Shown: positions 13,788 through 49,983 of the stretch, piece by piece
Numbering within the stretch: the first letter of the stretch is position 1
Layout of the letters: each line of letters opens with the position of its first letter
From: Chlorobiota bacterium
Lineage (GTDB): Bacteria; Bacteroidota; Ignavibacteria; Tepidaquicellales; OLB5
Direction of reading: 5' to 3'
Length of the DNA: 64,000 nt
Assembly (NCBI GenBank): GCA_022616535.1
Contig: JAKEEM010000051.1
Location: 1 to 64,000, forward strand
The notes under the pieces: generated by a model
What the model was told of the DNA's origin: nothing
What the model saw: only the letters and a program-made list of their open reading frames with translations
Databases searched by the model: none
Translations under genes and position numbers: made by a program

Positions 13788-14252
13788 TTAATATTTTAGA
13801 GCCTCTTCGTTAAGATACCAGCCGTGATAGTTTTCAGTATCTTCTGTGAAACCGCTTTTAATTGGATTATTAAACATATATGCAAGTTTTTCCATAAACT
13901 CATCGTAATCTCTGACTATTCTATCATATGATTCTTCAAGCCATATAGAACCACTGGTGTTTCTTAATTGGTTAATTTGATGTGCTGTAACACCTTTTAT
14001 TCCTTTCATTATTCTGCTTAGAGAATAACTCTCATTTGGCTTCAGCAACAAATGCACATGGGTAGGCATAACAATAACCGCATAAAGAATATAAAACTTG
14101 TTATCGCCCCCTTTGATATGCTCTAACAGTAATTTCTGTTCCTTAATTGATAACTTAATGGCTAAACAAGTAAATGTGACGAAATAAACAGAACCTTCCA
14201 AAGTCCAGTGAGGTAAATGCCTTCGAAATATTTTTAATTCATTTCCCTTCAT
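13788..14252 (-). mobile_element. REP-associated tyrosine transposase (RAYT, IS200-like Y1 transposase)
   Basis: WTLEGSVYFVTFTC, VMPTHVHLLL (HUH motif), SYDRIVRDYDEF (catalytic Tyr), MFNNPIKSGF. Confidence 0.88.
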
Positions 14253-46909: not shown

Positions 46910-48397
46910 CTAGATTCCCGCTTTCGCGGGAATGACAACGTTAGAGTTCCTTGTAATACTTTCCGTTCTCTCCTGTCTTTTCAGCTTTATTCCGTACCAC
47001 ATCCAGCCAAGCAGATAAAACGGCAGCTTCCATAATGATTTGAATCTTTTAAGGGGTTCACTCAAAAGCTGGCGTGAGCGGAACTGCTTATGCACAAATT
47101 TGTGCAGTATCCTGTAATATTCGGTTGAATACTCCCCGTCGAACATCATTTCAAAATCATCCGAAACCTCCCAGTTCTGTTTTGTTTTCATCTGCGCAGC
47201 GACTCTTTCATAAAACTTTGTTCCCGGAAGCGGGTAAGAAACGGAGATACCGATATCATCGGGCATTAGTTCGTTTACTAAGCGGATGGTCTGCTTAATC
47301 TCCTCCAGCGTTTCCTCGGTGTAGCCAAACTGCAGGAAGAAGCAGGTTTTAATCCCGTGCTTCTTAAGCAAGTGGGTTGATTCGTGTATCTGCTCAATAG
47401 TAGTGCCCTTATCCATCGCGTCAAGAATCTTCTGCGAGCCTGATTCAGCGCCCATCCAAACGGACTCACAACCTGAATTTGCAAGATGCGTGATGTTATC
47501 TTCCTTTAATAATAAATCAGCCCGGGATAAACATTTAAAAGGCACTTTCACGTTTTCTTTGTTCACAGTTTCGCTGAACGAAGCGGTCCATCCCGGCTTT
47601 AAGCCGAAAATATCGTCGCAGAACCAGATATGGTCGGGTGAGTATTTTTCCTTGAGCATTTTCATCTCATTTACAATATACTCAGGCGAATGTGAATTAT
47701 AAACCTGCCCGTAAATCGGTTTGGCGCACCAGTTGCAGTGGAACGGGCATCCGCGCGTGGTCACAAGGTTCATCGAAAAATACCCGTGATGCTTGAGCCA
47801 AAGTTGCCTGTATCGTTCAACATCAATTAAGCTCCAGTCGGGATAGGGAAGTGTGTCAAGCTCTTTTAAAACCTTTCTGGAAGCGGTTCTGACGATATTA
47901 CCGTTTTCTATGTAAGCGAGTCCATAAATTTGGGTTAGGGATTGCTTCGTCACTTCGTTCCTCGCAATTGTGCCAATTAATTCACCTAGGGTGATTTCGC
48001 CTTCCCCGCAAATAACATAATCTGCGCTGCGGTTAAAATATTTTTCAATGTGGTCGGCTGAATCAGACCCGGAGACTATTACCTTGCAGCCGTGCTCTTT
48101 TGCAATTTCGCTCATCCTGAATGCCGCCTCGCGCATTCTGCTAAGGCACATTTTGGTGAGGTAGTTAAACACATCATCATATATAACCATTACCTGCGGG
48201 TTGTGCCTCGAAAGCTCTGCTTTTAAATCCTCTTCGGAGTCAGCAAGCATTGTATCGAACAAAGCTGTTTCATATCCCTTGCTTTTAATATATGCCGCAG
48301 CGTAGAGAGTTCCGAGCGGGGCGTATAGGTTCATCGCACGGTATTCCTTCGGGTCGTGCTTCAGAAAATATGAATTTGCAAACAGTACGTCAGCCAT
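46910..48397 (-). CDS. B12-binding-domain radical SAM protein
   Basis: N-terminal cobalamin-binding-like segment; TTRGCPFHCNWCAKPIYG (CxxxCxxC); VWMGAESGSQKILDAMDKGTTIEQI. Confidence 0.92.
   Translation of the reverse strand: MADVLFANSYFLKHDPKEYRAMNLYAPLGTLYAAAYIKSKGYETALFDTMLADSEEDLKAELSRHNPQVMVIYDDVFNYLTKMCLSRMREAAFRMSEIAKEHGCKVIVSGSDSADHIEKYFNRSADYVICGEGEITLGELIGTIARNEVTKQSLTQIYGLAYIENGNIVRTASRKVLKELDTLPYPDWSLIDVERYRQLWLKHHGYFSMNLVTTRGCPFHCNWCAKPIYGQVYNSHSPEYIVNEMKMLKEKYSPDHIWFCDDIFGLKPGWTASFSETVNKENVKVPFKCLSRADLLLKEDNITHLANSGCESVWMGAESGSQKILDAMDKGTTIEQIHESTHLLKKHGIKTCFFLQFGYTEETLEEIKQTIRLVNELMPDDIGISVSYPLPGTKFYERVAAQMKTKQNWEVSDDFEMMFDGEYSTEYYRILHKFVHKQFRSRQLLSEPLKRFKSLWKLPFYLLGWMWYGIKLKRQERTESITRNSNVVIPAKAGI
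46914..46933. repeat. Palindromic repeat ATTCCCGCTTTCGCGGGAAT
   Basis: 8-bp perfect arms; encodes the C-terminal VIPAKAGI of the radical SAM ORF. Confidence 0.85.
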
Positions 48398-48398
48398 T
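48372..48398. repeat. 27-bp direct repeat, copy 1
   Basis: GAATTTGCAAACAGTACGTCAGCCATT, identical to 48974-49000. Confidence 0.9.
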
Positions 48399-48419
48399 TT
48401 TTAAAAAGATTATTAACCT

Positions 48420-48444
48420 GTAACGTCCGTTCTCCGAACGGACA
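48420..48444 (+). repeat. REP-like hairpin (family A): GTAACGTCCGTTCTCCGAACGGACA
   Basis: Adjacent to the RAYT stop codon. Confidence 0.88.
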
Positions 48445-48446
48445 TT

Positions 48447-48908
48447 TTAATCAATCAATCTGCTGAATGGATACTCCGTCCACTTATTAACCAATCCCCG
48501 CCTGACAGGATTATTTAAAATGTATTCTGCAATCTTAGTCAAAGATTCATCAGTCCTTACAACATGGTCATAATAGTTTTTTTGCCAAACATGCGGTATA
48601 TTAAATTTCTCCTTGGCAATTTTCGTTATATATCTTTTAAAGGAACTTATCCAAACCGACAAACTTTTCTTATAGTTTTCGTTAAGTGATAACAAAATAT
48701 GAATGTGGTTCGGCTTAATACAATAACAATACATCGTAACTTCTCCAAGCATAATTCTATAATCTATGGTATTTACTATAAATATAGCAAACTCAGTATT
48801 TTTAAAATAAGATTTATTTTCATTTGTGCAAATGGTAATGAAATAAGCATAACCGTCCCTGTAATCAAAATTCTTTAATCTTATGCTTTTTCTTTTAAAC
48901 GCCTTCAT
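48447..48908 (-). mobile_element. REP-associated tyrosine transposase (RAYT)
   Basis: YRDGYAYFITICTNENK, IKPNHIHILLSL (HUH), NYYDHVVRTDESL (Tyr), YILNNPVRRGLV. Confidence 0.92.
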
Positions 48909-48935
48909 TTTGTAAAATTAATGTAAACCTGTATT

Positions 48936-48960
48936 TGTTCGTTCGGAGAACGAACGCTAC
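48936..48960 (-). repeat. REP-like hairpin (family A), inverted orientation
   Basis: Reverse complement GTAGCGTTCGTTCTCCGAACGAACA; lies upstream of the RAYT. Confidence 0.88.
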
Positions 48961-48973
48961 GGATTTGTATGGA

Positions 48974-49000
48974 GAATTTGCAAACAGTACGTCAGCCATT
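48974..49000. repeat. 27-bp direct repeat, copy 2
   Basis: Identical to 48372-48398; contains the radical SAM start codon and first codons. Confidence 0.9.
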
Positions 49001-49059: not shown

Positions 49060-49983
49060 TTACGTTTCACGTAGATTAAACTCTTTCAGCTTTGAGTCAT
49101 ATTCTGTTAAAATCTTTTTCTGCATGTTATTGGGGTGGGTTTTTGAAACATTTTCGGTTGACCTGAACATATGCTCCCTTTCTTTTTTATCAATGTGAGG
49201 GTATTTTTTATTCCAGTGCTTAATTGTCAGTTTCATAAAATATTTATTAAGCCTATCACCGATTTTTCCCATAAAAAATAATTCAAAGACTTTTTGTAAA
49301 CTGTTCGAGCGGTTATTCACCCTGCACCCCGCTTCGTGAAGTCTCAGGTCGCATAATAAGTAATTGGGAAAATAATCATTTATCCACGCGTTGGTTTTTA
49401 TAAACCTGACAGCTAAATCAGAGTTATAAACAGGCTTTATGGTTGCAATCTCCGTAGCTGTAAAAATATTTTTTTCCTCTATTTCAAGATGATTTTCAGT
49501 AATGAAATAGTTAATGCAGAAATATTTATAGCTGTTCAGCAGAAATACTTTTTTGAAAAGCATAAGCAGAGTTCTTGCTATCCACAGCCTTCCTTCGGAG
49601 GCAATTACCATAAAGTCCAAATCGCTCGAAGGGTCAGAGCTGTTTTTGGAAAGACTGCCGGTCACCATAACCGCTCTAACGAACGGAAAGCGTTTTATAA
49701 GATGAGTTACAATAGCAGCCCTGCTCCACATTTTTTTTGAATAGTCTTCTTTATATATTCTTTTATTTATATTTTCAGCATATGGCTTTATGTAATAATA
49801 ACCTTCCTTTTCGGCAAATCGGCAGGACTCGTCTCCGCTGAACTGCTTCAGCAGTGACCCAATGGTTTCCTTCGGTATTGAGTTTTTGGGCAGGAAAGTA
49901 AATATCTCCTCATCTTTTAACGGATGAGAAAATATATCATAATACAAAAGCGTTTTCAGAATGTTCTTCTTTAAAATTTCCAT
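49060..49983 (-). CDS. Nucleotidyltransferase-domain protein
   Basis: AVMVTGSLSKNSSDPSSDLDFMVIAS (GS-x-D-x-D motif). Confidence 0.75.
   Translation of the reverse strand: MEILKKNILKTLLYYDIFSHPLKDEEIFTFLPKNSIPKETIGSLLKQFSGDESCRFAEKEGYYYIKPYAENINKRIYKEDYSKKMWSRAAIVTHLIKRFPFVRAVMVTGSLSKNSSDPSSDLDFMVIASEGRLWIARTLLMLFKKVFLLNSYKYFCINYFITENHLEIEEKNIFTATEIATIKPVYNSDLAVRFIKTNAWINDYFPNYLLCDLRLHEAGCRVNNRSNSLQKVFELFFMGKIGDRLNKYFMKLTIKHWNKKYPHIDKKEREHMFRSTENVSKTHPNNMQKKILTEYDSKLKEFNLRET

Follow-up and report, generated by a model that had tools for sequence, protein, structure and literature searches.

The described systems closest to the present locus are the RAYT (TnpA-REP) units, or REPtrons, such as that of E. 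coli, whose TnpA-REP structure is PDB 4er8. The orthologues of rayt genes retain their position and outpace their neighbours in evolution (PMC2817692), and a 2021 paper on RAYT genes stated 'No evidence of tnpAREP mobility' (PMC8266576). Proposals of novel RAYT loci and of horizontal acquisition also exist (PMC3686654). The IS200/IS605 single-strand transposons are also related, and their enzymes make no larger target duplications (PMC2817692). In homology-facilitated illegitimate recombination, one end is joined by homology and the other end illegitimately (PMC3240628).

The locus analysed here was compared with these systems. It carries a canonical RAYT gene placed between two inverted REPs; the difference from the units of the cited RAYT papers is that the unit as a whole lies between 27-bp duplicates of the gene start of its radical SAM neighbour. 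The features are given below in coordinates of the window, which is the whole 64-kb stretch of DNA that was analysed.

46910..48397, minus strand: B12-binding/radical SAM gene of the BchE/HpnJ-like superfamily, reaching no NCBIfam equivalog cut-off
48372..48398, minus strand: inner copy of the 27-bp direct repeat, covering the intact radical SAM gene from -1 to +26
48399..48419, minus strand: 21-bp A+T-rich leader from the downstream REP to the radical SAM start
48420..48443, plus strand: REP downstream of the RAYT (GTAACGTCCGTTCTCCGAACGGAC)
48447..48908, minus strand: RAYT (TnpA-REP), 153 aa, with HIH motif (H68 and H70 invariant)
48895..48999, minus strand: 34-codon ORF that begins in the outer gene-start copy, reads across the REP and stops within the first RAYT codons; probably incidental
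48937..48960, minus strand: inverted REP upstream of the RAYT (GTAGCGTTCGTTCTCCGAACGAAC)
48961..48973, minus strand: 13-bp spacer (TCCATACAAATCC) from the outer repeat copy to the REP head
48974..49000, minus strand: outer repeat copy (27 bp), with its ATG 60 bp past the nucleotidyltransferase stop, a spacing as at empty sites
49060..49983, minus strand: upstream nucleotidyltransferase-like gene, which adjoins the radical SAM gene in the relatives examined

The assignment of the unit to the RAYT class was supported at the level of both protein and DNA. The protein scored 98.4 bits against NF047646 (REP_Tyr_transpos, equivalog cut-off 80) and matched the E. coli TnpA-REP chain 4er8 with an E value of 1e-7 in phmmer. 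The HUH histidines H68 and H70 were invariant in seven aligned family members, and the NP(L/V)(R/K)xG motif downstream of the HUH is present as NNPVRRG. The gene is single and is flanked by two inverted REPs with a head of the GT(A/G)G type; both fold as 8-bp hairpins behind the head, which is GTAA in one and GTAG in the other. The two inverted GTAR-headed REPs, the fast evolution of the protein and a position common to relatives are all shared with known RAYT units. The 17-nt REP core gave six matches genome-wide with up to two mismatches, indicating a small REP population. The Y1_Tnp domain and HUH chemistry are shared with IS200/IS605 transposons; unlike those insertion sequences, multiple near-identical copies are absent, and the 27-bp repeat is a further difference if it dates from insertion. 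The genome holds four other RAYT-like genes, and the nearest paralogue is only 55% identical, so that no fresh donor copy exists in the genome. A second, distant RAYT-like gene lies at 13824-14210 of the window, and palindromic repeats were seen on its downstream side only.

The direct repeat GAATTTGCAAACAGTACGTCAGCCATT has exactly two occurrences in the window, at 48372-48398 and 48974-49000, identical at 27/27 positions. No chance copy is expected even when three mismatches are allowed (100 shuffles). In the whole genome, the outer region matched the inner repeat copy and one unrelated REP, and nothing more. The coordinates and identity given in the original prediction were thus reproduced, as was its arrangement of one REP, the RAYT and an inverted REP between the copies. 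The inner copy leaves the radical SAM ORF complete, as had been claimed. The statement that the upstream copy reads straight into the REP held in that the 34-codon ORF crosses the REP, with the added detail of the 13-bp spacer before it. The repeat copies therefore do not abut the REPs, the gaps being 13 bp on the outer side (48961-48973) and 21 bp on the inner side (48399-48419). The upstream copy translates as MADVLFANSPYKSVAFVLRTNKYRFTLILQNEGV followed by a stop, which falls within the first RAYT codons. The possibility that the outer copy serves a leader peptide was considered and set aside; the relatives carry no outer gene-start copy to open one. A remnant of a duplicated radical SAM gene was also rejected, since the interval from the nucleotidyltransferase to the RAYT showed no likeness to the radical SAM gene outside the 27 bp, and a second gene start was found there in no relative.

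The same junction was compared in 14 relatives of the same family or order having a full-length radical SAM orthologue, the genus itself being represented by one genome. The nucleotidyltransferase adjoins the radical SAM gene in 13/13 relatives whose contig extends that far. Nine relatives have no RAYT at this junction and only a single gene start; a RAYT-less relative with both copies was not among them. In seven of these nine the gene start lies 44-135 bp past the nucleotidyltransferase stop, while G001 and G029 have overlapping genes. The outer ATG of the present locus, at 60 bp, is in accordance with most empty sites. The remaining five relatives (G002, G003, G004, G009 and G012) have a RAYT-REP unit immediately before the radical SAM gene, in matching orientation and with RAYTs 54-59% identical to the present one. 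The first REP of filled relatives comes within a few tens of bases of the nucleotidyltransferase stop. A repeat of the 27-bp type was seen in none of these five, of which G002 has a contig that begins inside the RAYT and leaves its upstream side unread. The locus thus resembles a mosaic of an empty allele to the left and a filled one to the right, with 27 bp of gene start common to both, as would be left by an insertion with duplication or by an unequal join of empty and filled alleles. Judged from these comparisons, the junction would be either an old RAYT position with losses or one that has received RAYTs more than once.

The age of the repeat was estimated from the divergence of the neighbouring gene. 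The radical SAM gene shows only 30-45% agreement with the relatives at its fourfold-degenerate sites, which is near saturation, and the 27/27 identity bounds the neutral divergence of the repeat copies to less than about 0.11 per site. As the non-coding copy is still identical at every position, the repeat must have arisen long after this lineage split from those relatives. It is most likely young and private to this lineage, which is represented by one genome.

The original prediction had called for a search for similar duplications at other RAYT copies. A survey for direct repeats between the flanks took in about 109 RAYT loci, about 70 from the family and 39 from the sister family. Sequence of a neighbour was duplicated across the RAYT unit at five of these, in several RAYT subgroups, as listed below.

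This locus: 27 bp, 100% identical, radical SAM gene start
G017: 43 bp, 100% identical, terminator
G015: 61 bp, 90% identical, dinB tail and the initial bases of the following gene
G005: 109 bp, 89% identical, between pyrB and ssb
G006: 116 bp, 92% identical, rsfS tail and a REP

Four more bracketed units were thus obtained, against about 104/109 loci where repeats of this kind are absent, one of them the 55% paralogue of this genome. One of the four likewise sits just inside a downstream gene start. The RAYT is absent at readable equivalent sites of relatives for G005, G006 and G017, while G015 has no relative in the comparison. The distance from repeat to REP ranges from about 0 to 88 bp; it is about 88/13 bp in G017, compared with 13/21 bp here, and at G005 the bracket comes almost up to the REP head on either side. 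Around other RAYTs the repeats are mostly REP/BIME arrays rather than neighbour sequence, and a 17/28-bp repeat around one RAYT (L003) was discarded, being the REP hairpin itself in two copies. The control ORFs showed four non-hairpin repeats in 346, one of them comparable. The difference between 5/109 RAYT loci and 1/346 controls gave a Fisher p of about 0.004 (0.04 with all four control repeats counted), for a criterion set post hoc and control ORFs mainly from three genomes; the enrichment of brackets at RAYT loci is suggestive only.

Two further arrangements were observed during the survey. In G006 (C1, near 96-98 kb; L056 and L248), a 171-aa ORF beside a RAYT is likewise flanked by the same REP in inverted copies, as though the REPs carried this predicted ORF as a second cargo gene. 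In G012 (C69; L071), a 54-bp copy of the RAYT's own 3' end together with a REP lies upstream of the RAYT, and is perhaps the remnant of a second unit.

The reading considered somewhat more probable than its converse is that the RAYT unit was inserted into an empty allele with duplication of 27 bp, through joins of the recombination or repair type; we infer both the direction of the event and the mechanism of the joins. The REP-RAYT-REP segment would have entered the empty nucleotidyltransferase-radical SAM junction in this lineage, 26 bp inside the radical SAM gene. The 27 bp of target would have been duplicated at entry, so that the inner copy restores the gene; such a duplication also accounts for the survival of a gene when a unit lands within its start. 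The joins may have been made by template switching, or by illegitimate joining of an incoming RAYT-bearing copy of the locus to the empty allele, and probably not by a fixed cut of the Y1 enzyme. Homology-facilitated illegitimate recombination would give such an empty-left and filled-right mosaic with the overlap duplicated, and joining of this kind appears to fit best. Unlike the case of PMC3240628, the present one is read from a static sequence, with a putative donor allele and transfer route.

The earlier claim of an insertion inside the gene with a 27-bp duplication is favoured by the nine empty relatives, the 60-bp spacing and the four similar units, and is weakened by the five filled relatives without the repeat and by the many loci without brackets. 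A target-site duplication defined by the transposase is unlikely, because lengths of 27-116 bp and a variable distance from repeat to REP argue against a fixed duplication by the Y1 enzyme. The ends, given this variable distance, do not seem to be set by REP recognition, which suggests that the joins at bracketed RAYT units are not defined by the REPs. Transposons with a fixed-length duplication abutting their ends differ in both respects. Two points stand against the insertion reading. A near-identical donor copy is absent from the genome, and the filled relatives together with a syntenic RAYT clade suggest that the unit has long resided here, which would make the young repeat later than the unit.

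This second point leads to the first alternative, a less likely one that keeps some weight, in which the RAYT unit is an old, vertically inherited resident and local templated copying later placed the gene start a second time, beyond the unit, to give the 27-bp repeat. Such copying could proceed by replication slippage or template switch around the REP hairpins. The five relatives that have the unit at this junction in the same orientation, but lack the repeat, are in accordance with it. In the larger tree, the six syntenic RAYTs formed one clade with support of 88/84, and the identities of 54-59% for the RAYT compared with about 76% for the radical SAM protein agree with the behaviour of positionally conserved rayt orthologues (PMC2817692). 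It leaves to be explained the 60-bp leader before the outer copy, which matches the spacing of empty sites, as well as the similar brackets found where relatives are empty. The phylogeny also gives it limited help; with a smaller RAYT set the syntenic grouping was unresolved, pairing with the in-genome paralogue was not rejected (AU p 0.107), orthology of this RAYT with the others was neither backed nor rejected by AU tests, and resolution of the radical SAM tree was poor.

True transposition catalysed by the RAYT, leaving long and variable target duplications, is improbable. The five units with brackets of 27-116 bp in several RAYT subgroups and the close fit of the G005 bracket to its REP heads would be expected from it. 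It would be an outcome of Y1/HUH chemistry not known from IS200/IS605, which insert without larger duplications (PMC2817692), and it conflicts with the reported lack of mobility (PMC8266576). The ragged ends relative to the REPs here and in G017, the unbracketed state of most units and the failure to find a recent donor copy in the genome also speak against it.

Mixture of strains or faulty assembly in a metagenome-assembled genome, joining empty and filled alleles through a shared 27-mer, is very improbable. The genomes of the family are largely MAGs, and a k-mer of 27 would be plausible, but the junction sequences to either side of each copy are not something that a de Bruijn assembler makes up, and the other brackets, of 43-116 bp with three diverged by about 10%, are not k-mer echoes.

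The brackets of 27-116 bp at lineage-specific RAYT sites are datable marks of arrival and bear on how RAYT genes reach their loci. Duplications of such length and variability around RAYT units are novel with respect to the cited RAYT literature and unexpected for this class of enzyme. The wider proposal, that REP-RAYT-REP units of this order are mobile as units and duplicate tens to about a hundred bases of target on insertion, is doubtful at present. If true, it would represent a Y1/HUH-linked route of insertion that leaves long duplications of variable length, contrary to the view that RAYT genes are immobile.

The neighbouring radical SAM gene showed two minor features. The end of its ORF (...NVVIPAKAGI, window 46910-46975) is encoded by a palindrome of the GCTTTCGCGGGAAT type, also seen at L202, and the final residues of the ORF are probably repeat-derived. 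The radical SAM protein matches of G005 and G009 (L025 and L032) each contain one in-frame stop, reflecting either assembly error or decay.
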